Shown piece after piece: positions 10,683-40,672 of a DNA stretch of 64,000 nucleotides (its first letter is position 1; the number at the start of each line of letters is the position of its first letter). The notes below the pieces were generated by a model that was given only the letters and a program-made list of their open reading frames with translations, was not told the DNA's origin and ran no database searches. The position numbers and the translations under genes are program-made. The stretch spans positions 3,248,501 to 3,312,500 of the forward strand of contig NZ_CP133189.1 of assembly GCF_030913655.1 (NCBI RefSeq), written 5' to 3'. The DNA is from Clostridium sp. MB40-C1 (GTDB taxonomy: Bacteria > Bacillota > Clostridia > Clostridiales > Clostridiaceae).

Positions 10683-11453
10683 GTGTTTGCAGAGGAACGA
10701 CGAGAACTAATACTTTCTAAAGTAAAGTTACTAGGAAGAGTATTTGTAAAAGATTTAGCAGAAGAATGTGGTGTTTCAATAGATACTATTCGAAGAGACC
10801 TTACATCTATGGAGGAAAAAGGGCTTTTAAAAAGAACCCATGGTGGTGCTGTACCTTTATCAAAGGTTAGAAGATTGCCAATGGATGAGAAAATTAGATA
10901 TAGTGAAGGTACAGAACATCAAAATGCTGTTGCTAAATTAGCTTCAACTTATATAGAACAAGGTGATACTGTTTTTATAGGTGGAGCGAGCATACACTAT
11001 GTTTTATTAAAGTATCTTCCAAGAGATAGGGAATTCACAGTTATTACAAATTCACTTACAATTGCACAAAAACTTAAAAACTTAAGTAACGTTGAAACAT
11101 ATATAGTATGTGGAAAAATAAAAAGTGAAGAAGGTATGGTTGATGTATTAGCCACTGATTTTATAAGAGGGTTAAGAATAGATATAGCTTTTTTAACAGG
11201 AGGAGGAATTTCTGCAAAACATGGTTTAAGCAGTTCTACACCAGAAGGAGCTATTTTTCAAAGAACTGTAGCAGAGGTATCTCGTAGGAAAATATGTCTT
11301 GCTAATTTTGATAAGGTAGGTACTGAGTTTTTTTCCAAAACTATAGATATTAAAGATTTGGATATATTAATAACTGATTGGGAAGCACCTGATGAAGAGA
11401 TTAACAAAATGGGAAAATTAGGAGTAAAGGTTTTAATTGCAAAACAAATATAG
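10683..11453 (+). CDS. DeoR/GlpR-family transcriptional regulator
   Basis: DNA-binding regulator of 256 aa. The DeoR-type helix-turn-helix spans about 6-57 (typical start FAEERRELI, then VKDLAEECGVSIDTIRRDL). The DeoRC sugar-phosphate sensor domain spans about 75-232, with the expected TGGGISAKHGLSS and CLANFDKVGTEFF segments. The start is GTG 10683, with GAAAGGAG at 10664-10671. Thirty-six bases separate it from two tandem aminotransferase genes, so it probably controls them and itself in response to a phosphorylated sugar. The repeat at 10571 is the likely operator. Confidence 0.93.
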   Translation: MFAEERRELILSKVKLLGRVFVKDLAEECGVSIDTIRRDLTSMEEKGLLKRTHGGAVPLSKVRRLPMDEKIRYSEGTEHQNAVAKLASTYIEQGDTVFIGGASIHYVLLKYLPRDREFTVITNSLTIAQKLKNLSNVETYIVCGKIKSEEGMVDVLATDFIRGLRIDIAFLTGGGISAKHGLSSSTPEGAIFQRTVAEVSRRKICLANFDKVGTEFFSKTIDIKDLDILITDWEAPDEEINKMGKLGVKVLIAKQI

Positions 11454-11489
11454 AATATATAATTTTATTAAATAAAAGGAGGCTAAATA

Positions 11490-12611
11490 ATGAAGGTTAA
11501 TTTTTACACATCGCTAAGAGAATATAATGAAAAAAAAGGTGAATTCGATAAAGCTATTCAATCGGTTATTGAAAAAGGTAATTTTATATTAGGCGAACAA
11601 GTTACTCAACTTGAAAAAGATATTCAAGAGTATACAGGAGCAAAACATGCTATAGGAGTAGCGTCAGGTACTGATGCATTAGTTATTGCTTCAGATATAC
11701 TTGGATTTAAGGATGGAAAAGAAGTTATAACTTCACCATTTACTTTTCTTGCATCTGCATCATGTATTATAAAACATAAAGGTAAACCAGTTTTTGTAGA
11801 TATTGATGAAGATACATTGCAAATTGATGTTAATAAAATTGAAGAAAAAATAAATGAAAATACAGTAGGTATACTTCCAATACACTTATTTAATCAAATG
11901 AGTGATATGGATAAAATCATGGATATAGCAGATAAACACAATCTTAAAGTTTTAGAAGATGCTGCTGAGGCATTTGGTATGAGATTTAAGGGAAATAGTG
12001 ATAATTATAGACATTCAGGAACTATCGGAGATTTTGGAGTATATTCTTTCTTCCCAACAAAGACTCTTGGAGGATATGGTGATGGAGGAATGATAGTTAC
12101 TAATGATGATAACTTAGCACAACTTGTAAAATCTTATAGAGTTCATGGTGCTTCAAAAAAATATCATTATGATTTTATAGGATATAATTCTAGATTAGAT
12201 ACTCTTCAAGCGGCTGTATTATCAGTTAAGTTAAAATATATAGATGAAGCAATACAGAAGAGAGAAAACATAGCTAAGTTATATATTGAAAGATTAAAAG
12301 ACTGTGAAAATATTAGATTCCCTAAAGTTAAAGGAGATCAACATCAAGTTTATTATGTATTTAATATATTAGCAGAAAATAGAGATGAACTTGCAGAATA
12401 CTTAAAGAAAAACGAAATAGGAACAAGTATTTACTACCCAATGCCTCTTCATCTACAAAAGAGTTTTGAATATTTAGGATATAAAAAGGGAGATTTCCCT
12501 ATAGCTGAGAAGATTGCTCAAGAGATTATTGCTCTTCCTATATATCCAGAGATGACTACTGATGAAGTTGAATTTGTATGTGAAACAATTAAAAAGTTTT
12601 ATAGAAAATAA
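11490..12611 (+). CDS. DegT/DnrJ/EryC1 family sugar aminotransferase (first of pair)
   Basis: PLP-dependent aminotransferase of 373 aa, the standard DegT length, which would transfer an amino group to a keto-sugar nucleotide or related substrate. PLP phosphate-binding SGTDALVIA, D157 (LEDAAEAFG) and the Schiff-base K191 (FFPTKTLGGYGDGG) are all present. AAAGGAGG precedes the ATG. It follows the DeoR regulator and precedes a second DegT gene at a 29-bp gap. The segment IHLFNQMSDM resembles the IHLFGQ of WbpE/FdtB-type enzymes. The exact substrate cannot be read from the sequence. Confidence 0.9.
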   Translation: MKVNFYTSLREYNEKKGEFDKAIQSVIEKGNFILGEQVTQLEKDIQEYTGAKHAIGVASGTDALVIASDILGFKDGKEVITSPFTFLASASCIIKHKGKPVFVDIDEDTLQIDVNKIEEKINENTVGILPIHLFNQMSDMDKIMDIADKHNLKVLEDAAEAFGMRFKGNSDNYRHSGTIGDFGVYSFFPTKTLGGYGDGGMIVTNDDNLAQLVKSYRVHGASKKYHYDFIGYNSRLDTLQAAVLSVKLKYIDEAIQKRENIAKLYIERLKDCENIRFPKVKGDQHQVYYVFNILAENRDELAEYLKKNEIGTSIYYPMPLHLQKSFEYLGYKKGDFPIAEKIAQEIIALPIYPEMTTDEVEFVCETIKKFYRK

Positions 12612-12640
12612 TAGAACCTAATAAAGAGAGGATGTTTAAT

Positions 12641-13819
12641 ATGAGTAAAAAAATACCATTTTCACCACCGGATATAACTCAAGCAGAAATTGATGCTGTA
12701 GTTGAGGTTATGAAATCAGGTTGGATTACATCTGGACCAAAAATACTTCAGTTTGAACAAAATATAGCAAAATATTGTGATACTAATCACGCTGTAGCGG
12801 TAAATAGTGCTACTGCTGGATTAGAACTTATATTAAAAGTTTTAGGAATTAGTGGAGAAGATCAAGTTATAACAACTCCATACACATATGCTGCTACATC
12901 TAACGTATTATTACACAGAGGTGTAAAACCAACTTTTGTAGATGTAAAAAAAGGTGACTTTTTAATAGATGAGCAAAAAATTTATGATGCTATAACACCA
13001 AAAACAAAAGCAATAATGACTGTTGATATAGCAGGGGTTCCTGTAGATTATGATGCAGTTAAGAAAGTAATAAAGGCTAAAAACCGTGAAGATATTGTAC
13101 TTATATCTGATTCAGCTCATTCATTTGGTGCTACATATAAGGGGCAAAAAGTTGGGGGACAGATGGATTTTCACGTATTTTCATATCATGCGGTAAAGAA
13201 TCTTACAACTGCAGAAGGCGGAGCGATTACTTTTAATAATAACAATTTTAGGGGTAAAGAAGATTTATACAAAGAATTTAAATATACATCATTACAAGGA
13301 CAGACAAAAGATGCTCTTTCAAAAATGCAAGCTGGAGCATGGAAATATGATATTTTAACTGATGGATTTAAGTGCAATATGACAGATATTATGGCAGCAA
13401 TAGGTCTTGTTCAACTTGAAAGATATGAAGGAATGCTTGAAAAGAGAAGTGAGTTATTTGATGTTTATAATTCTGTTCTTAAGGATAAAGAATGGGCTAT
13501 GATTCCTTTCAGAGGAGAAGAAGGAACAGAAACTTGCTACCATTTATATACATTAAGAATAAAAGATTTTACTGAAGATCAAAGAAATAAAGTTATACAG
13601 ATGATGGCAGAAAAAGATATAGCTACAAATGTACACTTTATGCCACTCCCAATGTTTACTGTATATAAAAACTTAGGATATAAAGTAGAAGATTATCCTA
13701 ATGCATATGCACAATATTCTAATGAAATAACATTACCGCTTTATTCTACACTTTCACTTGATGATGCTGAATATGTAGCAACTGAACTTGTTAAGTGTGT
13801 AGAAAAAGTTTTAGGTTAG
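12641..13819 (+). CDS. DegT/DnrJ/EryC1 family sugar aminotransferase (second of pair)
   Basis: PLP-dependent aminotransferase of 392 aa, related to but clearly distinct from its neighbour. It has SPPDITQAEIDAV at the start, D157 (SDSAHSFGA) and Schiff-base K186 (YHAVKNLTTAEGG), the pattern seen in ArnB/PseC-like sugar-nucleotide 4-aminotransferases. I chose ATG 12641 because AGAGAGGA lies 9 bases before it; an in-frame ATG at 12632 overlaps that site. It is the last gene of the deoR-degT-degT unit, closed by the terminator at 13842. No dehydratase, epimerase or glycosyltransferase accompanies the pair here. Confidence 0.9.
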   Translation: MSKKIPFSPPDITQAEIDAVVEVMKSGWITSGPKILQFEQNIAKYCDTNHAVAVNSATAGLELILKVLGISGEDQVITTPYTYAATSNVLLHRGVKPTFVDVKKGDFLIDEQKIYDAITPKTKAIMTVDIAGVPVDYDAVKKVIKAKNREDIVLISDSAHSFGATYKGQKVGGQMDFHVFSYHAVKNLTTAEGGAITFNNNNFRGKEDLYKEFKYTSLQGQTKDALSKMQAGAWKYDILTDGFKCNMTDIMAAIGLVQLERYEGMLEKRSELFDVYNSVLKDKEWAMIPFRGEEGTETCYHLYTLRIKDFTEDQRNKVIQMMAEKDIATNVHFMPLPMFTVYKNLGYKVEDYPNAYAQYSNEITLPLYSTLSLDDAEYVATELVKCVEKVLG

Positions 13820-13841
13820 TTAAATTCATATAAATAATAGG

Positions 13842-13882
13842 ATTGTATAGTGATTATAAAAAATTGCTATACAATTTTTTTA
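13842..13882 (+). terminator. Rho-independent terminator
   Basis: The 9-bp stem ATTGTATAG / CTATACAAT is followed by TTTTTTTAT. It ends the deoR-aminotransferase operon. Confidence 0.75.
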
Positions 13883-13984
13883 TGCTTATTAAGGATTATA
13901 TAAAGTTAATTTGGGTGTAGCATTTTTATTTAAATAGAATATATTACTATTAGTTAGTAAAAAGCTAGGAGGAAAAATTATAAT

Positions 13985-14212
13985 ATGGCTAATCCAATGA
14001 AATCAGAAATTAAAAAAACAGATGTAATTTATTCGCCTAATGAAAAATGTATTCCACAAGAAATGGTAATAAGAAATGTTAGGCTAGCTGCTGCATATGT
14101 TCCTTTTCAAAAACTCTGCACTATCTTCTCTCCTATAGAAGCTCTTAAAAGAGGAACTGTTTTTCCAGAACTTTTTAGTCCTTACCCAGTAAAAGATAAA
14201 TATAATATGTAA
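13985..14212 (+). CDS. cotJA: Spore coat associated protein CotJA
   Basis: Small protein of 75 aa, first gene of the cotJABC operon made in the mother cell during sporulation. The central VRLAAAYVPFQKLCTIFSPIEALKRGTVFPELFSPY block is the CotJA signature: aromatic, proline-rich and ending with a FPELF.PY motif. AGGAGGAAAAATTATA precedes the ATG. CotJB starts 17 bp after the stop. In Bacillus and clostridia the products assemble in the inner coat with the CotJC manganese catalase. No sigma-E-like promoter could be read with confidence. Confidence 0.93.
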   Translation: MANPMKSEIKKTDVIYSPNEKCIPQEMVIRNVRLAAAYVPFQKLCTIFSPIEALKRGTVFPELFSPYPVKDKYNM

Positions 14213-30578: not shown

Positions 30579-30722
30579 GTATGGAAAACATAGGTGACTA
30601 ATGATAATAATTTTTTACCTTAACATTGAACTTAGATTTTGTCAAAGAATTAGAATACTACAACTAACAATTATATAATAAAAATAGTATAATTATATAT
30701 ATAATTGGAGGAAGGTGAGTCC

Positions 30723-30926
30723 TTGAGAATTTTACTATATATTATAATAGGAATAGTGTTATTTATTATATTTGCTGTTATTTTTGAAAAGCCTATGGAT
30801 GATTCAGGAGATGAATTTAATGCTAATATATTTCCTTTTGAGATAAAAGATCCAAAGGATTGGTATAAGACAAAGCAAGATAAAACCCAAAAAGATAAAA
30901 CAAAAGAAGATGATAAAGATAAATAA
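30723..30926 (+). CDS. Small single-pass membrane protein with charged tail
   Basis: Protein of 67 aa that I do not recognise. One hydrophobic helix (about 2-23) is followed by an acidic stretch and then a tail of repeated Asp-Lys units (QDKTQKDKTKEDDKDK), probably cytoplasmic or surface exposed depending on topology. The start is TTG 30723, placed by the strong GGAGGAAGG at 30707-30715. It lies 66 bp before the sigma-54 activator gene on the same strand and may share its transcript. No function can be proposed. Confidence 0.7.
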   Translation: MRILLYIIIGIVLFIIFAVIFEKPMDDSGDEFNANIFPFEIKDPKDWYKTKQDKTQKDKTKEDDKDK

Positions 30927-30992: not shown

Positions 30993-32975
30993 ATGCAGCT
31001 ACAAGATAATGAAAATATAATAAAAATATGGGGAAATTTTATCAATAAAGGTCTATTAGATACAAAGAATTTAAGATATATCATAGCAGAATCATGGAAA
31101 CGCAGTAAGCAATACAAGATAAATCCATTTTTGAATGATTTTTTTGTAAGACTTGAAAAAGATGAGTTATTCAAAAGATGTAAGCAATATGCAGTACTTT
31201 TAGATACTACAAAACCTTTTATGGAAAGCTTATATAAAATAGTAAAGGATACTGAGTTTTTAATTAGGTTAACTGATAGAGAAGGATATGTTTTAGATCA
31301 TATAGGGAATGAAAAACTAATTAATATTTATAATTCTTGTGGATTATGTGAAGGGTATAGTGTAAAAGAAGAAGTCATAGGAACCAATGCTATAGGTATA
31401 GTACTTATAACTGGAGAACCTATTCAGGTTGTAGGAGGAGAACATTATTTAAAGAAATATCATAACTTAACATCATCAGCTTGTCCTATAAAGGATAGGA
31501 ATGGAAATATATTAGGTGTTTTAAGTATGACTGGAAATTATAAACTTGTTCACCCTCATACGTTAGGGATGGTAGTAGCTGCTGCTGAGGCAATAGAAAA
31601 AGAAATTAAATTAGAAGAAAGAAATAAAGAACTTGAAAATATAAGTGAAAAATTTTATCAAATTACTGAATCTATATCAGAAGGTATAATTAGAATTGAC
31701 AGAAATGGAAATATAGTAAGTATAAATAGATTTGCCAGAAAATTATTACTATTCAAAGAACAAGAGATTATAGGAGAGCATTTTAAGAGCATTCTCAGCA
31801 TAGGAAACCGACAAGATATTATTAAAGGCGTAAAAAACTTTAGAAAGTTTGAGGAGGAAGAAATACATTTTAAAACTAGGACAGGGAAAAAGAAAACATG
31901 CATTGCAAATATTACTCCTATTAAAGCACCAAATAATAAAGGTAGGGAAGGTATAGTTATAACGTTTAGAGAAGAAAAGAAGATTCATAATTTAGTAAAC
32001 AAAATAGTTGGTGCAAATGCTAAGTTTACATTTGAAGATATACTTGGAGAGAGCAAGGCTATAAAATCGGCAATAAAAATATCTTCAATTTCTGCCAAAA
32101 CTAATACAACGATATTGCTTCAAGGTGAAAGTGGAACTGGAAAAGAAATGTTTGCCCAGGCAATACACAATGAAAGTGATAGGAGAGATTTCCCTTTTGT
32201 GTTTTTAAATTGTGGTGCAATACCTAGAGAACTAGTTTCCAGCGAACTATTCGGGTATGTAGAAGGTGCCTTTACAGGTGCTAAAAGAGGAGGCCATCCT
32301 GGTAAATTTGAATTGGCAGATGGAGGAACCATATTCTTAGATGAGATAGGAGATATGCCTTTTGATGCTCAAGTAAGTTTACTTAGGGTATTAGAAGACA
32401 GAACTGTTGTAAGAGTGGGGGGACATGATGTCATTCCAATTGATGTAAGGGTAATTGCTGCTACAAATAAAGATTTGAGCAAAGAAGTTGAGCTTGGAAA
32501 TTTTAGAAGTGATTTGTTTTATAGAATAAATGTTATGACAATTAATACTCCGCCTTTAAGGAATAGAGAACAGGATATTAAAATATTTATTCAGTACTTT
32601 TTAAAAAAATTTTGTAAAGATATAGAAAAAGATATAAAGGGAATTAGTGAAAGCTTTTATAAAGGTATGGTTAGTTATAATTGGCCAGGTAATGTTAGAG
32701 AACTTCAAAATGTAATGCAAACAGTAGTAAACATGGCAGAACAAAACTCAATATTAAATTATGAAAATATACCATCACATATAACTGGAAAAGAAATACT
32801 AGGAGAATTAATACATAAAAAAGAATTAGTTTCTTTAGAAGAAATAGAAAAAAATGCAATTATTCAAACTATAAAAGAGTTAGGCGGAAATGTAGCATCA
32901 GCAGCTAAAGTCTTGGGAATAGGAAGAAGTACTATGTATAGAAAGATGAAAAAATATAACATAGATATAATGTAA
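30993..32975 (+). CDS. Sigma-54-dependent transcriptional activator (AcoR-like)
   Basis: Enhancer-binding protein of 660 aa. A GAF-type sensor region (about 70-200, with CGLCEGYSVKEEVIGTNAIG as in AcoR relatives) is followed by a PAS domain (about 215-330). The AAA+ domain has Walker A GESGTGKE (378-385), the sigma-54-contacting GAFTGA (425-430) and the R finger region. A Fis-type helix-turn-helix (about 620-660, VASAAKVLGIGRSTMYRKMKKY) ends the protein. GAGGAGGT precedes the ATG. Downstream lie repeated sites and a -24/-12 promoter for the Mrp-like operon, its likely target. The ligand is unknown. Confidence 0.95.
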   Translation: MQLQDNENIIKIWGNFINKGLLDTKNLRYIIAESWKRSKQYKINPFLNDFFVRLEKDELFKRCKQYAVLLDTTKPFMESLYKIVKDTEFLIRLTDREGYVLDHIGNEKLINIYNSCGLCEGYSVKEEVIGTNAIGIVLITGEPIQVVGGEHYLKKYHNLTSSACPIKDRNGNILGVLSMTGNYKLVHPHTLGMVVAAAEAIEKEIKLEERNKELENISEKFYQITESISEGIIRIDRNGNIVSINRFARKLLLFKEQEIIGEHFKSILSIGNRQDIIKGVKNFRKFEEEEIHFKTRTGKKKTCIANITPIKAPNNKGREGIVITFREEKKIHNLVNKIVGANAKFTFEDILGESKAIKSAIKISSISAKTNTTILLQGESGTGKEMFAQAIHNESDRRDFPFVFLNCGAIPRELVSSELFGYVEGAFTGAKRGGHPGKFELADGGTIFLDEIGDMPFDAQVSLLRVLEDRTVVRVGGHDVIPIDVRVIAATNKDLSKEVELGNFRSDLFYRINVMTINTPPLRNREQDIKIFIQYFLKKFCKDIEKDIKGISESFYKGMVSYNWPGNVRELQNVMQTVVNMAEQNSILNYENIPSHITGKEILGELIHKKELVSLEEIEKNAIIQTIKELGGNVASAAKVLGIGRSTMYRKMKKYNIDIM

Positions 32976-32988
32976 AGAAAAAAGAAAG

Positions 32989-33066
32989 TGTATCATAATG
33001 AAACTCGTGTGCCATTATGATACAAAAAAAAAGAAATAATATGTCGTAAATGTATCATAATGAAAC
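32989..33066. promoter_or_regulatory. Upstream activator sites for the sigma-54 regulator
   Basis: TGTATCATAATGAAAC occurs identically at 32989-33004 and 33051-33066, and its inverted core CATTATGATACA lies at 33013-33024. Copies one and two form an inverted repeat followed by a run of A, not T, so it is not a terminator. The sites lie about 150-230 bp before the predicted start of the -24/-12 promoter, the normal range for enhancer-binding proteins. Confidence 0.75.
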
Positions 33067-33073
33067 AATTATT

Positions 33074-33108
33074 AAAAAGGTTGAATATTTTATTCAACCT
33101 TTTTCTTG
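33074..33108 (+). terminator. Rho-independent terminator
   Basis: A perfect 14-bp stem (33074-33087 with 33091-33104), core GGTTGAAT / ATTCAACC, ends in CTTTTTC. It ends the activator transcript and separates it from the Mrp-like operon. Confidence 0.88.
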
Positions 33109-33189
33109 TTTATATATAAATTTTATAATAAACCAGGGTAAATCAAGGGTTTAAGAGGATGGAAAATAGTAACTATAATTATAAAAAAG

Positions 33190-33206
33190 TTGGTATGAAT
33201 CTTGCT
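33190..33206 (+). promoter_or_regulatory. Sigma-54 (-24/-12) promoter
   Basis: TTGGTATGAATCTTGCT has GG at 33192-33193 and GC at 33204-33205, exactly 12 bases apart as sigma-54 requires, with TTGG and TTGCT matching the consensus elements. It lies 38 bp before mrpE and just downstream of a sigma-54 activator gene. Confidence 0.82.
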
Positions 33207-33243
33207 TATAAGATTAACATAACTAGAAAAGGAGGTATTTAAA

Positions 33244-33714
33244 ATGACATTTGGGGTTATGATATTATACTTAATATTTTGGATTGTACTATGTGAAAAG
33301 TTTAATATAGAAACATTTATTTTAGGGATAACAGTATGTATATTATTAAGCATTTTAAATGAAAATCTTTTTGGTAAAACCACAAGAAAAGAAAAATCTT
33401 TATTAAAAAACACAAGGTACTGGGCTGAATATATATTTCTTTTAGTAAAAGAAGTAGTTATAGCTAACATAAATGTAGCAATAATTGTATTAAGTCCGAG
33501 TATGAATATTTCGCCTGGTATAGTAGAGTTTAAAACAAAATTAAAATCTAATTTTTGTAGAATGGTTCTTGCTAATTCTATTACTTTAACTCCTGGGACT
33601 ATAACTGTAGATATAGAAGATGATATATTAAGAATTCATTGTCTTAAAAGAGAGTATATAGAAGGTGTAATGGATTCTAAATTTGAAAAAATTCTTTTAA
33701 AAATAGAGGAGTGA
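33244..33714 (+). CDS. mrpE: Mrp/Mnh antiporter subunit E
   Basis: Membrane protein of 156 aa, MrpE/MnhE family, first gene of the antiporter operon. Two N-terminal helices (about 3-40) are followed by an amphipathic loop and a third hydrophobic stretch. The C-terminal cytoplasmic domain has the signature MVLANSITLTPGTITVDIEDD. In Mrp complexes E is needed for assembly of a cation/H+ antiporter. GGAGGT precedes the ATG. It is the same family as MbhA of membrane-bound hydrogenases, so the name rests on the absence of hydrogenase subunits here. Confidence 0.92.
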   Translation: MTFGVMILYLIFWIVLCEKFNIETFILGITVCILLSILNENLFGKTTRKEKSLLKNTRYWAEYIFLLVKEVVIANINVAIIVLSPSMNISPGIVEFKTKLKSNFCRMVLANSITLTPGTITVDIEDDILRIHCLKREYIEGVMDSKFEKILLKIEE

Positions 33715-33720
33715 TATATT

Positions 33721-33972
33721 TTGGATAAGTTATTTGTATTTGCAATTTTATTTCTAACAGGAACTGTTTTTTTATGTATGATTAGATTAGTTAAAGGACC
33801 TAGTGCAGCAGATAGATTAGTTGCTATAAATGTTGTAGGAACTAAAACAATAATATTGATCTTAATAGTTTCTTTTATAATAAGAGAGACGTATTTTATT
33901 GATGTATCTTTAGTATATGCTTTAATAAGTTTTATTGCATCTGTGGTTATTGCAAAAAATGTAAGAATATAG
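33721..33972 (+). CDS. mrpF: Mrp/Mnh antiporter subunit F
   Basis: Small membrane protein of 83 aa with three predicted helices and the MrpF motif VKGPSAADRLVAINVVGTK. The start is TTG 33721, supported by AGAGGAGTG eight bases upstream. It follows mrpE by 6 bp and precedes mrpG by 11 bp, so translation is closely coupled. It is a structural subunit of the antiporter membrane arm (the family corresponds to MbhB). Confidence 0.92.
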   Translation: MDKLFVFAILFLTGTVFLCMIRLVKGPSAADRLVAINVVGTKTIILILIVSFIIRETYFIDVSLVYALISFIASVVIAKNVRI

Positions 33973-33983
33973 GAGGGGTTTTT

Positions 33984-34304
33984 ATGAAGATAGCTATTAT
34001 GGGAGTATTTCTTATGAGTGGACTATTTTTCTTTATGGTTGGAACTATAGGAGTATTAAGATTTCCTGATATATATACAAGAGTTCATGGTGCTGCAAAG
34101 TGTGATACTTTAGGGGCTGTGTTATGTTTAATATCACTAATGATTTATAGTGGATTTAATATAGTTAGCTTAAAGCTTTTGTTGATTATAGTTTTTATAT
34201 GGATCACGAATCCTACAGCGACACACTTAATAGTAAAGGCTAAATATGAAAATGATATGAAGGTGAAAAATAAGGAAGGTGTGGATAAAATTGAAAACGT
34301 TTAG
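33984..34304 (+). CDS. mrpG: Mrp/Mnh antiporter subunit G
   Basis: Membrane protein of 106 aa with three helices and the MrpG hallmark GVLRFPDIYTRVHGAAKCDTLG, then TNPTATHLIVKAKY. AGGAGGGG supports the ATG. Its 3' end overlaps the next reading frame by 14 bp when TTG 34291 is used as start. Structural subunit, equivalent to MbhC. Confidence 0.93.
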   Translation: MKIAIMGVFLMSGLFFFMVGTIGVLRFPDIYTRVHGAAKCDTLGAVLCLISLMIYSGFNIVSLKLLLIIVFIWITNPTATHLIVKAKYENDMKVKNKEGVDKIENV

Positions 34305-34530
34305 TATTATAATGCTCATATTTTTAATTGGATCTTCGATAGCTGTTTCTGTTATGAAAAACATGTTATCTGCAATTATTATTTTTATGATTTATAGCTT
34401 GATAATGGCCATATTGTGGGAACAGCTTAATGCGCCAGATGTAGCAATTACAGAGGCGGCAGTAGGAGCAGGAATTACAACTCTTTTATTTATGCTTACA
34501 TTAAAGAGAATTAAGGGAGTGAAAAAATGA
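34291..34530 (+). CDS. Mrp/Mbh subunit with DUF4040 (MbhD-like, MrpA middle part)
   Basis: Membrane protein of 79 aa, three helices, containing EQLNAPDVAITEAAVGAGITTLLFM, the DUF4040 pattern found in the C-terminal part of MrpA and as separate MbhD. The Asp/Glu pair in that helix is conserved in the family. The start is TTG 34291, with GGAAGG at 34274-34279; an in-frame GTG at 34279 overlaps that site. It overlaps the next gene by 4 bp. The MrpA C-terminal region is thus split into separate genes here. Confidence 0.85.
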   Translation: MKTFSIIMLIFLIGSSIAVSVMKNMLSAIIIFMIYSLIMAILWEQLNAPDVAITEAAVGAGITTLLFMLTLKRIKGVKK

Positions 34531-34829
34531 AGAAAATAATTGCTTTCATACTTTCTACATGCTTAATTGGTATTTTATTATTGGGTGTTAATGATTTACC
34601 TAGGTTTGGAAGTGAGAATAATCCAGCTAATAATGAGGTTTCAAAATATTATATAGAAAATTCAGTAAAAGATACTGGAGCTACCAATATAGTAACGGGA
34701 ATTATATTAGATTATCGTGCTTTTGACACTTTTGTAGAAGCTAGTGTTTTATTTACAGCAGCAGTTATAGTAATTATTTTATTAAAAAAGGATAAGCAAG
34801 AAAATCAAGATGATAATTATATTAAATAA
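34527..34829 (+). CDS. MbhE-like / MrpA C-terminal-like subunit
   Basis: Protein of 100 aa with an N-terminal helix (about 4-20), an extracellular loop (PRFGSENNPANNEVSKYYIENS), the segment ATNIVTGIILDYRAFDTFVEASVLFTAAVIVIIL and a charged tail. This matches the MbhE family and the extreme C-terminus of MrpA, where TNxVTxILxDxRxxDTxGE is typical. It starts within the stop of the preceding gene (ATGA). Together with the DUF4040 gene it replaces the missing tail of a large MrpA. Confidence 0.85.
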   Translation: MKKIIAFILSTCLIGILLLGVNDLPRFGSENNPANNEVSKYYIENSVKDTGATNIVTGIILDYRAFDTFVEASVLFTAAVIVIILLKKDKQENQDDNYIK

Positions 34830-34861: not shown

Positions 34862-35281
34862 ATGAAGGATGTAATTTTAAAAGAGGTAACGAAAATAGTA
34901 ATCCCTTTTATACAAATTTTCGGTATATATGTTATTTTTCATGGACATTTAAGTCCAGGGGGAGGATTCGCAGGGGGAACCATTATAGGTGCTAGTTTTA
35001 TCTTATATAGATTAGTTTGTGGAAATAAACAAGCTAAACAAAAGCTAGTATATAAAACTTTAATGAATATAGTATGCTTTTCTGTGTTTTTATATGGATT
35101 ATTAAAAGGATACAGTTTTATAACAGGAGGTAGTCATATTAATTTACCGCAACCACCTTTAGGTAATCCAGGTGATGTTTTTAGTGGAGGTTTTTTATTG
35201 CCTTTGAATATACTTGTAGGTACTATTGTAGCTATATCAATATACTTTTTTTATTCATTATTTGATGAAGGGGAAATTTAG
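34862..35281 (+). CDS. mrpB: Mrp/Mnh antiporter subunit B
   Basis: Membrane protein of 139 aa with about four helices, MrpB/MnhB family. It shows the family block FGIYVIFHGHLSPGGGFAGGTIIGASFILY near the N-terminus. A second block, LGNPGDVFSGGFLLPLNILVG, lies near the C-terminus. TAGGAGGGGC precedes the ATG. The stop is directly followed by the ATG of mrpC. Equivalent to MbhF. Confidence 0.94.
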   Translation: MKDVILKEVTKIVIPFIQIFGIYVIFHGHLSPGGGFAGGTIIGASFILYRLVCGNKQAKQKLVYKTLMNIVCFSVFLYGLLKGYSFITGGSHINLPQPPLGNPGDVFSGGFLLPLNILVGTIVAISIYFFYSLFDEGEI

Positions 35282-35644
35282 ATGGAAGGGATATTAAACA
35301 ATTATTATGAAACAGCAGCGATTATTTTATTTGGAGTAGGTTTTACAATTCTTTTACTTCATAACAATTTAATTAAGAAAATAATAGGTATGAATATTAT
35401 GGATACAGCAATTTTTTTATTCTTTATAGCAAAAGGATATATAGAAGGTAGAGAGGCACCAATAATTGTAAATGGATATAAGGGGGTTAATGCATATATA
35501 AATCCAATTCCTACAGGACTTATGCTGACGGGCATAGTTGTAGGGGTTAGCACTACAGCTTTTGCTTTAGCATTAACTATTAAAATATATGAGAATTATG
35601 GAACTATAGAATTGGATGAGATATTAAAAAAGGGAGATGGTTAA
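35282..35644 (+). CDS. mrpC: Mrp/Mnh antiporter subunit C (NuoK-like)
   Basis: Membrane protein of 120 aa with three helices, homologous to NuoK of complex I. It has LLLHNNLIKKIIGMNIMDTAIFLFF and PIPTGLMLTGIVVGVSTTAFALALTI, the usual MrpC pattern. Its ATG immediately follows the mrpB stop, with AAGGGG eight bases upstream inside mrpB. Equivalent to MbhG. It probably links the antiporter subunits within the membrane arm. Confidence 0.93.
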   Translation: MEGILNNYYETAAIILFGVGFTILLLHNNLIKKIIGMNIMDTAIFLFFIAKGYIEGREAPIIVNGYKGVNAYINPIPTGLMLTGIVVGVSTTAFALALTIKIYENYGTIELDEILKKGDG

Positions 35645-35647
35645 ATT

Positions 35648-37117
35648 TTGATTATTAAAAGTTTTCCACTGATGATAGTGCTCATATTATTCATAACGGC
35701 TTTTGTAATGCCTATAGTAAATAGAAAAAATATAGTAAAGGGTATAAGTCTTATATCAATGTTCGTATCATTAGTTCTTTCTATAGCAAATCTTAGAGGA
35801 GTATTAATTAGTGGTAAGTATTCCTATTCCATAGGACATTTTGATGCGCCTTTTGGAATTGAATTTTATATAGGAAATATAGAATCTATAATGGCGGTAA
35901 TGTTTACTTTTGTAGCTAGTATGGTTATTTGGTATTCCATTTATAGTATAGACAAAGATATAAATGAAAATAGAATTCCTTTATATTATTTACTTGTAAA
36001 TGTACTTATAGGTTCTTTACTAGGAATTGTATTCACGAATGATATATTTAATGCTTTTGTTTTTATTGAAATAGGAACTTTAGCTTCTTGTGGGATAGTG
36101 GTTATAAAAGATAAAAAGGAAAATATAAAGGCAACTTTAAAATACCTTATAATGAGCTGTTTAGGTTCCGGTCTTGTGCTTATGGGAATTGCATTTTTAT
36201 ATTCTATGACAGGACAATTAAATATAACTTATATTCACGAAGTTTTGATAAATAATTATACAAATTACCCTAAGGCGATTCTTGTAACTATCGGATTATT
36301 TACAATAGGATTGGGTGTTAAAAGTGCCATGTTTCCTCTTCATAATTGGTTACCAGATGCTCATTCAAGTGCACCTACTTCATCAAGTGCTCTTCTTTCA
36401 GCCCTTGTACTAAAAGCTTTTGCAATATTATTAATAAAAATTTTGTATAGAGGGTTTGGATTAGAGATTATAGCAGGAAATATGGTTTTAGATATATTAC
36501 TTATTTTAGGTATTGCAGGAATGGTTATCGGTTCTGTATTTGCTATATTCCAAAGGAATATAAAGAGGTTAGTAGCGTATTCAACTGTAGCTCAAATGGG
36601 GTATATATTCTTTGGTATAGGATTAGGAACTGAATTTGGAGTTACACTAGCTGTTTTCCATATGATTGGTCATGCAGTAACCAAATCAGCATTGTTTTTA
36701 TGTGCAGGGGCAATGATTGAAAAAACAGGTCACAAGGAAATTGATAAATTAAGAGGTGTTGGAAAAGAGATGCCACTAACCTTAGGGCTATTCTTTATAG
36801 GTTCTTTATCTATGATAGGAATACCTGTACTACCTGGATTTGTTAGTAAATGGTATTTATCTTTGTCGAGTATAAGGGCAGGTAAACCAATGTTAATAAT
36901 TTTTATATTAATAAGTAGTTTATTAAATGCGGTATATTATTTCCCTATTGCTATAAATGGATTTTTTGGAGAAGAAAATTTAAAGGGAAAAGTGTATAAG
37001 TCTAAGAAAAAGCCACTAAAAGAACTATTGCCAGTAATGATGTTAATTATAGCTATGATTGGAGTAGGAATAGCTTCAAGAAGTATAATAGATATTATTA
37101 AGCTTGGCATAGGATAA
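35648..37117 (+). CDS. mrpD: Antiporter-like subunit 1 (MrpD/NuoN-type)
   Basis: Polytopic proton-translocating subunit of 489 aa, Proton_antipo_M family. Key residues of the pump are visible: the TM5 Glu in NAFVFIEIGTLA, the TM7 Lys in GLGVKSAMFPLHNWLPDAH, a following Lys in LSALVLKAFAILL, and the RLVAYSTVAQMGYIFFGIG segment. The start is TTG 35648, with AAGGGAG upstream at a slightly long distance. It is the first of three such subunits in the operon and the best match for MrpD/MbhH. Confidence 0.92.
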   Translation: MIIKSFPLMIVLILFITAFVMPIVNRKNIVKGISLISMFVSLVLSIANLRGVLISGKYSYSIGHFDAPFGIEFYIGNIESIMAVMFTFVASMVIWYSIYSIDKDINENRIPLYYLLVNVLIGSLLGIVFTNDIFNAFVFIEIGTLASCGIVVIKDKKENIKATLKYLIMSCLGSGLVLMGIAFLYSMTGQLNITYIHEVLINNYTNYPKAILVTIGLFTIGLGVKSAMFPLHNWLPDAHSSAPTSSSALLSALVLKAFAILLIKILYRGFGLEIIAGNMVLDILLILGIAGMVIGSVFAIFQRNIKRLVAYSTVAQMGYIFFGIGLGTEFGVTLAVFHMIGHAVTKSALFLCAGAMIEKTGHKEIDKLRGVGKEMPLTLGLFFIGSLSMIGIPVLPGFVSKWYLSLSSIRAGKPMLIIFILISSLLNAVYYFPIAINGFFGEENLKGKVYKSKKKPLKELLPVMMLIIAMIGVGIASRSIIDIIKLGIG

Positions 37118-37131
37118 AAGGAGGACTTGAT

Positions 37132-38583
37132 TTGAATAGTGCTGTAATTTTACTCCCAGTTTTTTTCCCTTTTGTTTTGTCTATACTAATAGCTATTTTT
37201 AAATTCAAAGAAAGAGAAAGAAACATATTTGCTAGCTTTGGAGTGATTTTTAATTGTATTTTTTTATTTTTTATTTTTTACTATGTAGGTGAGTGTAGCT
37301 TTCATTTGTTTAAATTCAATGATTTTCTTGATATATACCTTAAAATAGATAAATTATCAATTCTTTTTTCTATATTAGTATCAGTGTTATGGATATTTAC
37401 TACTTTTTATTCAATGGAATATATGAAGCATGAAGGAAAGGAAAATAGATTTTTTATATTTTTTACAGCTACTTTAGGAGTTACAATGGGGATTGCTTTT
37501 TCAGGAAACTTAATTACATTATATATTTTCTATGAATTGCTTACTTTAGCTACCTTCCCATTAGTAATTCATTCTGGCACAAAACAAGCATTATCTAGTG
37601 GTAAAAAATATCTTATATACTCTTTTGGTGGAGCAACATTAGTTTTATTAGGAATGATTCTATGCTTTAGTATAACAAAAAACTTGAATTTTGTTCCAGG
37701 TGGAGTATTAGCAGGAGTTTCAGGTGGAAATACAAAGTTATTTCTTGGAATTTACGTAAGTTTATTTTTAGGGTTTGGGGTCAAAGCTGCTTTAGTTCCA
37801 TTTCACTCATGGTTACCAGAAGCTATGGTAGCTCCCACACCTGTAAGTGCTCTTTTACATGCGGTTGCTGTAGTTAAGTCGGGAGCTTATGCTCTAATAA
37901 GAATAAGTTATTTTATAGTTGGGGCTGATGTAATAAGAGTAACAAAAGGGCATATATACATGAGTGTATTAATTGGAGTAACTATTATAATGGGATCGTT
38001 TTTAGCACTTCATCAACAGAATTTAAAGAAAAGGTTAGCTTATTCTACTGTCAGTCAGCTAGGGTATATATTATTGGGAATTGTACTTTTAAACGAGGAT
38101 GCTTTAGTGGGTGGATTACTTCATTTAATAAATCATGCTGTTATAAAAATAACTTTATTCTTTTGTGTTGGCACAATAATGTATATGACTCATAAGACTG
38201 AAATCAGTGAGATAAAGGGCATAGGGAAACAAATGCCTATTACTATGGGATGTTTTGCAATAGCAGCAATTTCTCTTATAGGAATTCCTCCGAGTAATGG
38301 GTTTGTGAGCAAGTGGTATTTGGCTTTAGGTGGACTCGTAGAAGGAAAGATATATTTTGCAGCTATACTACTTTTGAGTGCAGTTCTTACAGCATTGTAT
38401 CTTTTACCTATTGTTACTGTAGCTTTTTTTAAAAAAGAAAATAACGATGTGATAGAGGTAAAGGAAGCACCTATGAAGATGTTGGTGCCTATAGTATCAA
38501 TAACAGTGATAGTCGTGTTATTAGGGTTATTCCCAAATCCAGTTGTAACTTTTATACAAAAGATAGCAGCTGAGTTGATTTAA
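37132..38583 (+). CDS. Antiporter-like subunit 2 (MrpD/NuoM-type)
   Basis: Second Proton_antipo_M protein, 483 aa, with about 14 helices. It carries the TM5 Glu (IFYELLTLATFPLVIHS), TM7 Lys (GFGVKAALVPFHSWLPEAM) and TM8-region Lys (VAVVKSGAYALI), plus KRLAYSTVSQLGYILLG. It resembles NuoM/MrpD but differs clearly from the gene before it, so the duplication is old. The start is TTG 37132, preceded by AAAGGAGG. The retained charged residues suggest an active ion channel, not a remnant. Confidence 0.9.
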   Translation: MNSAVILLPVFFPFVLSILIAIFKFKERERNIFASFGVIFNCIFLFFIFYYVGECSFHLFKFNDFLDIYLKIDKLSILFSILVSVLWIFTTFYSMEYMKHEGKENRFFIFFTATLGVTMGIAFSGNLITLYIFYELLTLATFPLVIHSGTKQALSSGKKYLIYSFGGATLVLLGMILCFSITKNLNFVPGGVLAGVSGGNTKLFLGIYVSLFLGFGVKAALVPFHSWLPEAMVAPTPVSALLHAVAVVKSGAYALIRISYFIVGADVIRVTKGHIYMSVLIGVTIIMGSFLALHQQNLKKRLAYSTVSQLGYILLGIVLLNEDALVGGLLHLINHAVIKITLFFCVGTIMYMTHKTEISEIKGIGKQMPITMGCFAIAAISLIGIPPSNGFVSKWYLALGGLVEGKIYFAAILLLSAVLTALYLLPIVTVAFFKKENNDVIEVKEAPMKMLVPIVSITVIVVLLGLFPNPVVTFIQKIAAELI

Positions 38584-38599
38584 AAAGGAGGGATAAAAT

Positions 38600-40672
38600 A
38601 TGAAGAGTGAAAATTTATTATTATTTATTATACTTTTTCCTATGATAGGAGCTTTTATAGGTCTCGGATTAGGACGAATAAATGAAAAGTATAGAGATGT
38701 TTTTAATATTGTAATGACAGGTATAGTTTTTGGTGTGATAACATTTTTATATAAATTTGTACAATCAGGATCAATAGAACTGTCTGTACCATATATAATG
38801 GGAACAGGACTACATTTAAAATTAGATATGTTTAGATATATATTTGCTTGGATAACTTCTTTTGTATGGTTTTTAGTTACAATTTATTCAACACAATATT
38901 TTATAAATTATAAGAATAGAAATAGGTACTATTTTTTCTTTATACTAACATTTGCAAGTACAATAGGTTTGTTTGTATCAGAAAATATTTTAAATTTATT
39001 TACTTTTTTCGAAATAATGTCATTAACTTCTTATCCATTAATTATCCATGATGAGAGTGAGTATTCTCATGAAGCAGGGAATATTTATATAGTAATGGCA
39101 ATTAGTGGGGGATTAATTCTTCTGATGGGATTGTTCCTATTGTTTGATTACACTAAAACATTGGATATAAGTCAGCTTAATGTTGCTGTTTCTAATATAG
39201 GAAATGTAAAGTATGTGATATCAGCTTTGATTATAATAGGTTTTGGAGTAAAGGCAGGAATGTTTCCTCTTCATATATGGATGCCTAAAGCTCATCCAGC
39301 TGCACCTGCACCGGCAAGTGCTATACTATCTGGAATATTAGTCAAAACAGGTATTTTTGGAATCATTATTGTTGCTAATATAATGATGGCAGGAGACATT
39401 GTTATATCTGCTATTATATTAGTTATAGGATTTTTGAATATGTTTATAGGTGGATTTTTAGCAATGTTTCAAAGAAACATTAAAAGAATTCTTGCTTATA
39501 GTAGTATGAGCCAGATGGGATATATTCTCGTTGGTATTGGACTTGTGGGAATGCTTAAAGAACATGGTGCTATAGCTATTTATGGAAGTTTATACTATGT
39601 TATCAATCATGCAATTTTCAAATCGCTTTTATTTATGATAGCTGGGCTTATATATATTGTATTACATGAATTAAGTATAAATGAAATAGGTGGATTTGGA
39701 AGAAATAAAAACAGGCTTAAAGTATTATTTTTAATAGGAATGTTTTCTATTATAGGAATGCCTGGTTTTAATGGATATACAGGAAAAACTCTTTTACATG
39801 TTGCTCTTTCAGAAGCTCATCATATGTACGGAGGATGGTGGTTTACAGCAGCTGAAATTATATTTACAATAAGTAGTGCTTTTACAGTAGCTTATTTATT
39901 AAAAATATTTGTAGCTGTATTTGTGGAGAAAAACGATCCTGCTATTGAACAAGTAAAAATAAAATGTAAAGCTATTATATATGTACCTATGGTTATTTTA
40001 TCAGTAGTATCTATATTTATAGGTATTATGCCAAATAAAATTTTTAAACTTATTAATAAATCCATAGATGTTTTCCCAAGCCAAGTTTATATGGAGCCTC
40101 ACTTTTATTCAGCGTCCCATATGGCTTCAGCATTTCTTATAATATTAATAGGAGTGGGTATTTACTTCTTATTTATAAGAACTTATTTAATGAAAAAACA
40201 AGAAGAACATTGGTATTATGAAAATTATGCTTTAAACTGGATTAGCTTAGAAAAAAACATCTATGCACCAGTAGGAAAAGTTATATTTATTGTTTGTTCT
40301 ATTATATTAAAGATTATTGATAAAGGGCTTATATATTCAATAAATACGTTTAATAAATTATGCAAAGCTTTAACTTTGAGAGAAATCAAGAGAGGAAAGG
40401 GTATTAAGGGACAATTGAAACAATGGATGGAAACAATGATTGAGTCTAGTATGGCTTGTATAAATACAACTCAAAAAAATATAAAAAAACTTACTAATAT
40501 AGATGAGAAAAATGTACTCAAATCTAATGATATAAGTAATAAAATAAATACTTCTACAACAAATCTTAGAGATGAAGCTTATAAGTTAGGAGAAAAAATG
40601 AATAGTGTAACTTACTCAATATTTGTTTTTGCAGGAGTTCTTGTAGCATGTCTCTTAATTATGATTGTATAA
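38600..40672 (+). CDS. Antiporter-like subunit 3 with C-terminal extension
   Basis: Third Proton_antipo_M protein, 690 aa. The core (about 1-480) has the Glu in FTFFEIMSLTSYPLIIHD, Lys in GFGVKAGMFPLHIWMPKAHP, Lys in SGILVKTGIFGI, and KRILAYSSMSQMGYILVGIG. A further C-terminal part (about 500-690) contains three more hydrophobic segments separated by a charged, helical stretch and ends in a membrane helix. It could carry a lateral helix like that of NuoL/MrpA. AAAAGGAGGG precedes the ATG. It is the last gene of the operon; it is longer than MrpD but lacks the MrpA DUF4040 tail, which is encoded separately. Confidence 0.9.
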   Translation: MKSENLLLFIILFPMIGAFIGLGLGRINEKYRDVFNIVMTGIVFGVITFLYKFVQSGSIELSVPYIMGTGLHLKLDMFRYIFAWITSFVWFLVTIYSTQYFINYKNRNRYYFFFILTFASTIGLFVSENILNLFTFFEIMSLTSYPLIIHDESEYSHEAGNIYIVMAISGGLILLMGLFLLFDYTKTLDISQLNVAVSNIGNVKYVISALIIIGFGVKAGMFPLHIWMPKAHPAAPAPASAILSGILVKTGIFGIIIVANIMMAGDIVISAIILVIGFLNMFIGGFLAMFQRNIKRILAYSSMSQMGYILVGIGLVGMLKEHGAIAIYGSLYYVINHAIFKSLLFMIAGLIYIVLHELSINEIGGFGRNKNRLKVLFLIGMFSIIGMPGFNGYTGKTLLHVALSEAHHMYGGWWFTAAEIIFTISSAFTVAYLLKIFVAVFVEKNDPAIEQVKIKCKAIIYVPMVILSVVSIFIGIMPNKIFKLINKSIDVFPSQVYMEPHFYSASHMASAFLIILIGVGIYFLFIRTYLMKKQEEHWYYENYALNWISLEKNIYAPVGKVIFIVCSIILKIIDKGLIYSINTFNKLCKALTLREIKRGKGIKGQLKQWMETMIESSMACINTTQKNIKKLTNIDEKNVLKSNDISNKINTSTTNLRDEAYKLGEKMNSVTYSIFVFAGVLVACLLIMIV

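Follow-up and report, generated by a model that had tools for sequence, protein, structure and literature searches.

A conserved sigma-54 activator, three dyads and a -24/-12 promoter precede an Mrp-type antiporter operon in Clostridium sp. MB40-C1 and related clostridia

Promoters of the sigma-54 type remain closed until an activator spends ATP. In the clostridia, 39 groups of such activators (EBPs) were described together with sigma-54 by Nie et al. 2019 (PMC6615313), 15 of them with TGT-N10-12-ACA sites, and 65% had a single target operon. These regulons have an activator with a Fis-type helix-turn-helix (HTH), usually encoded next to the target operon, and several TGT...ACA dyads, most of them lying 100-250 bp upstream of a TTGGCAT-N5-TTGCT promoter, an arrangement which the locus described here resembles. 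None of the 39 rows in Table 1 of that study has an Mrp operon as target, and the words antiporter, Mrp and Mnh do not occur in its main text; the last gene of the OrdR row is nhaC, regarded there as encoding a transporter of amino acids. The available text of two further papers (PMC12316311, PMC4641369) does not mention Mrp or antiporters, and that of a review of Mrp (PMC5703873) contains none of the terms 'sigma', 'regulator' or 'clostridi'. An antiporter gene under sigma-54 control already has a precedent, since the SigL operon CD2733-CD2734.1 of C. difficile has a sigma-54 promoter, a Na+/H+ antiporter gene and its own EBP, CD2732 (PMC7438776). Unlike the mrp unit, that operon encodes a PLP-dependent transferase, a Na+/H+ antiporter and a membrane protein, and it is no multi-subunit Mrp operon. 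In Clostridium hiranonis, expression of a sigma-54-dependent Fis-family regulator correlates with a Na+/H+ antiporter (PMC7798349). The preliminary description of this DNA knew of no well-described sigma-54 control of Mrp antiporters, and none was found in the open-access text searched, which included PMC2700814, PMC12516955 and PMC4452262, the C. difficile operon being the antiporter case listed there.

The window, a stretch of 64,000 nucleotides of Clostridium sp. MB40-C1 (contig NZ_CP133189.1), contains a sigma-54 activator gene of 660 codons (30993..32975, + strand, as are all the window's genes described below). Pfam matches assigned its product a GAF domain (residues 79-205), a PAS domain (220-326), an AAA+ domain (350-517; PF00158, 228 bits), an AAA lid (523-600) and a Fis-type HTH (614-655; PF02954). 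The motifs expected of such an activator were intact: Walker A GESGTGKE at residue 378, GAFTGA, through which sigma-54 is contacted, at 425 and Walker B LDEIG at 449. The genome also contains rpoN (PF04552 at C1:3827014-3827493). The sigma-54 activator domain had 26 matches in the genome, of which 19 were counted as activators (16 with E values of at most 4.1e-68 and three near 1e-41); the seven weaker matches are probably other AAA+ proteins. The full N-terminal region of the activator was matched once in its own genome, and the other four matches spanned the PAS region only.

The sensor had initially been called an AcoR-like GAF/PAS sensor. Its GAF and PAS domains were borne out by Pfam. Among solved structures DhaR is closest, and assignment to AcoR was rejected because the adjacent target is mrp rather than an acetoin dehydrogenase operon. 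The predicted structure of residues 1-345 (mean pLDDT 87.5) best matched the sensor of E. coli DhaR bound to DhaK and DhaL (DhaR(N) structures 4lrx, 4lry and 4lrz; profile E 3.4e-29, TM 0.71-0.77), and beyond DhaR it matched general PAS folds only. DhaK and DhaL, two kinase subunits, regulate DhaR. The best full-length NCBIfam match was also DhaR (416.3 bits), followed by PrdR (412.6 bits), and membership of either family was rejected because these scores fall under the equivalog cut-offs of 551 and 795, respectively. DhaR activates the dihydroxyacetone kinase operon, whereas the target genes here are Mrp genes. In the case of PrdR, the activator of clostridial proline catabolism, the PAS-AAA+-Fis part aligns, with the alignment beginning after the GAF region.

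Directly upstream of the activator gene is an open reading frame with a TTG start (30705..30926) that encodes a 73-aa protein with one membrane helix, as judged by eye, and no match to a Pfam family. This protein was matched in six of 146 family genomes, all six among the eight from the window's genus, and in every one of the six its sole locus was just upstream of the activator gene. From its position, it may be part of the control unit.

The target was confirmed by Pfam matches to be an ion-antiporter operon of the Mrp type, as had been proposed. It consists of ten genes in the order mrpE, F, G, mbhD, mbhE, mrpB, C and three MrpD-like genes: an mrpE-like gene (33244..33714; PF01899), mrpF- and mrpG-like genes (33721..34304; PF04066, PF03334), mbhD- and mbhE-like genes (34279..34829; PF13244, PF20501), mrpB- and mrpC-like genes (34862..35644; PF04039, PF00420), and three genes for MrpD-like antiporter subunits of 489, 483 and 690 aa (35648..40672; PF00361 in each). 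The mbhD- and mbhE-like genes are the counterpart of the C-terminal part of MrpA, and models for MrpA match their products at that part of the models. The subunits E, F, G, B, C and D and the MbhD/MbhE pieces are shared with Mrp (CPA3) antiporters and the membrane arm of Mbh, so that the A-G subunits that define Mrp are represented; unlike those systems, MrpA is split, its one-piece form being replaced by MbhD/MbhE, there are three MrpD-like subunits, and no redox module follows, the next genes encoding a DUF4829 protein and then an HD-domain protein. Duplication of mrpD is known in cyanobacteria (PMC5703873). The complex would be predicted from its subunits to exchange Na+ or K+ for H+.

Three copies of TGTATCATAATG follow the activator gene, at 32989 (+), 33013 (-) and 33051 (+). 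The 16 identical bases originally noticed in two of them were found as TGTATCATAATGAAAC, over exactly that length, in both + copies. Every copy is part of a 17-bp dyad of the form TGTATCAT-n-ATGAnACA, and these dyads are putative activator sites: dyad A (TGTATCATAATGAAACT, 32989..33005, +), dyad B (TGTGCCATTATGATACA, 33008..33024, with its best half-site on the - strand) and dyad C (TGTATCATAATGAAACA, 33051..33067, +). The centers of A and B are 19 bp apart, and those of B and C 43 bp. The triplet scored 39, against a maximum of 29 among 60 shuffles of the region that preserved dinucleotides; since the window and these same sequences supplied both the motif and the spacing range used in the search, the shuffles are a test of clustering and not of an unseen prediction.

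A terminator-like intrinsic hairpin of 14 pairs followed by a T-run was located after the repeats by a hairpin scan (33074..33104, +) and is probably the end of the activator transcript. Further downstream, a pattern scan placed the sigma-54 promoter TTGGTATGAATCTTGCT at 33190..33206 (+), with the exact GG-N10-GC spacing of -24/-12 elements, ending 37 bp 5' of mrpE. Repeats, terminator and promoter spacing were therefore all as the preliminary description had them. Transcription would be expected to start about 12 nt beyond the promoter, and a sequence like a ribosome-binding site, AGGAGG (33230..33235, +), precedes mrpE. The strict pattern TTGGYAY-N5-TTGCW had 18 matches in the genome, this promoter among them, while the reversed control had none and a control with one extra spacer base had five. 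Eight of the 18 were within 3 kb of one of the 19 EBP AAA+ domains, compared to a random mean of 0.5. The marks of a sigma-54 regulon (activator motifs, Fis-type HTH, -24/-12 promoter, repeated dyads and rpoN) were thus all present.

To compare mrpE loci with and without the activator, MrpE was searched for in the 146 family genomes, which were drawn evenly from a larger group. Thirty-eight genomes matched, with 44 mrpE places (45 rows, since one broken gene gave two), and 33 loci were examined (the window and 32 others), the other 11 being weak matches with E values of 7e-16 or worse. An activator was encoded directly upstream in 15 of the 33 loci, with identities of 62-92% in the relatives, and every one of these 15 had a promoter scoring 7-8 of 8 around GG-N10-GC. 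The remaining 18 had neither an activator at the locus nor a promoter-like sequence above 4 of 8. This co-occurrence strongly supports the sigma-54 control unit for an Mrp-like operon that had been proposed. Because rpoN was found in all 22 genomes tested, the window's own genome and seven activator-less genomes included, its presence alone predicts nothing. In the seven genomes with the closest activator-less operons, the GAF domain proper of the activator had no match, and the only matches to the activator covered the PAS region, at 20-35% identity and reaching back no further than residue 165, which indicates that these genomes have sigma-54 but lack the activator.

The activator-less loci of these same seven genomes, the closer MrpE relatives among the 18 (L065, L069, L071, L073, L075, L076 and L077), share a TAGACG...GATAA block upstream of mrpE, at -68 to -85, which suggests a promoter-like element different from the sigma-54 type. 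Since the block stands in place of the EBP unit in these seven operons, transcription of such an operon apparently need not depend on sigma-54, and it is conceivable, though unlikely, that in the window too the activator regulates mrp while the main or basal promoter is of the sigma-A type, with sigma-54 providing a conditional boost. A candidate for such a promoter is the sigma-70-like match TTAAGA-17-TATAAT (10/12) at 33151-33179, between the dyads and the sigma-54 promoter, which could give basal transcription. However, sigma-70-like matches in the stretch upstream of mrpE were not above chance (17 found, 18.9 expected from shuffles), and TAGACG was absent from all 15 activator-linked regions, as it was from the other 11 activator-less ones.

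Genome-wide searches for the repeats bear on whether mrp is the only target. The 12-mer TGTATCATAATG, for which a search of the genome had been suggested, occurs six times in 3.89 Mb, three of them inside 74 bp here, and its reversed-pattern control had no occurrence. With at most one mismatch, the dyad pattern was found in only two places, both at the mrp locus (dyad B has two mismatches); with at most two it was found in ten places, three of them at the mrp locus, and none of the other seven was within 20 kb of any of the 18 strict sigma-54 promoters. At three mismatches or fewer the pattern and its reversed control were equal (136/118 and 137/121), which makes that level uninformative. A second EBP gene (PAS-AAA+-Fis; C1:3603041; L006:66-2172, C1:3604059) also precedes one TGTATCATAATG copy, a GG-N10-GC sequence and a gene for an ECF transporter S-component. 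This second locus would fit a wider regulon in which mrp is one member and other targets have looser sites, but it has its own EBP and different outer dyad bases, and with so few dyad matches in the genome and none elsewhere near a strict sigma-54 promoter, such a regulon was judged improbable.

The distribution of the activator was also followed in a named genome collection, in which the best 80 of 450 activator relatives were studied. Thirty-two of the 80 precede mrpE and mrpF, with promoter scores of at least 7 in 30 of these loci and of 6 in the two others, both from Fusibacter. For 45 of the 80 (L124-L168), none of mrpE, F, G and C was present in the flanking DNA searched, a depth that could miss distant genes. 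The three exceptions (L106, L115 and L123) were not linked to a full mrp operon: L106 had no mrp gene within the roughly 1.5 kb of available sequence, L123 (Geosporobacter) had other genes beside the activator, and L115 (Peptoclostridium litorale, 10739-14071) kept the activator, dyads and promoter with only two MrpD-like genes downstream. A tree of the activators, built from 79 rows by a quick method with SH-aLRT support and midpoint rooting (L148, with an internal stop, and L150, of 430 aa, were left out), placed all 33 mrp-linked rows and these three exceptions in one group of 36 rows with a support of 100.

Thirteen of the 32 mrp-linked loci were taken as the same records as loci of the family survey, so the two sets are not independent. 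With each distinct locus counted once, there are 34 mrp-linked loci (the window, these 32 and L070), and in all of them, from Clostridiaceae to Fusibacteraceae, an orthologue of the activator, with identity down to 47%, lies directly before mrp genes and a GG-N10-GC promoter is present. In 32 of the 34, the window included, the dyad triplet scored above all 60 shuffles. The first spacing was 19 bp in 30 of these 32 (18 and 20 in the other two), the second was 42-45 bp in all 32, and the distance from the third dyad center to the GG element was 116-149 bp in 28 (106, 162, 170 and 172 in the others). The repeats are therefore dyads in a near-fixed geometry of 19 + 42-45 bp, which refines the preliminary description. 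No triplet of the motif exceeded all shuffles in L114 and L116, and the score of L117 was low; these three branch deepest, and another activator site may be used there. A lenient scan detected a hairpin with a T-run in 27 of 37 regions, a few of these hairpins being built from the dyads, so the terminator is common and not constant.

Among the loci listed, the genes upstream of the activator differ, and the mrp operon downstream is kept. All 28 mrp-linked relatives with enough sequence have at least three MrpD-like genes (one of them split into two frames in L102 and L103), and the sequences of the remaining four of the 32 end early. In the complete genome of L103 and L023, mrpE is split into two frames and the activator, dyads and promoter are retained. 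The clostridial unit is also present, with an activator identity of 59%, in L120, whose record bears the name Lutibacter sp. B2 (Bacteroidota) and may be mislabelled. Although three rows of the activator clade neighbor no full mrp operon, a chance match, with an activator that serves some unrelated gene and a coincidental promoter, is scarcely credible, as the arrangement is kept in 34 loci at activator identities as low as 47%, and the co-occurrence of promoter and activator in 15 of 15 loci versus 0 of 18 already contradicts it.

The locus is very probably a dedicated sigma-54 EBP regulon, with probably one target, that drives the ten-gene mrp operon. Recurrence of the control unit in distantly related clostridia makes it look like a real control switch. 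According to the mechanism proposed from the sequence features, the activator would bind as dimers to the three dyads, about 133 to 195 bp before the GG of the -24 element, and three dimers would suit one AAA+ hexamer, the spacing being nearly fixed in relatives. On receiving a signal through the GAF-PAS sensor, the hexamer would contact closed sigma-54 RNA polymerase at 33190-33206 and open it, and the operon would be transcribed. The terminator should block read-through from the activator gene, so no expression of the antiporter would be expected until the signal arrives. A metabolic or redox signal is only a guess, as the sensor is DhaR-like and the solved structures of DhaR hold protein partners. 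A more specific proposal, which we regard as doubtful when taken as a whole, has the unit turn a three-module Mrp-type exchanger on and off through a DhaR-like sensor that would read a protein partner and not a small molecule; the partner in the window's genus could be the 73-aa membrane protein, and related lineages would have exchanged the entire unit for a different promoter. If that protein is the partner, membrane or ion status would gate sigma-54 transcription directly.

The activators at these loci make up one orthologous group, conserved among relatives. Their type of control is well known and their Mrp target unusual, and no description of the group was found in the literature searched. 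The known clostridial sigma-54 regulons thereby gain a further group of orthologous activators and Mrp as a target. The requirement for an ATP-spending activator predicts that a large ion exchanger would be turned fully on or off in response to one signal. In addition, the near-fixed three-dyad enhancer offers a test case for hexamer assembly on DNA, and the sister genera provide a naturally occurring exchange of promoters on an operon of this kind.
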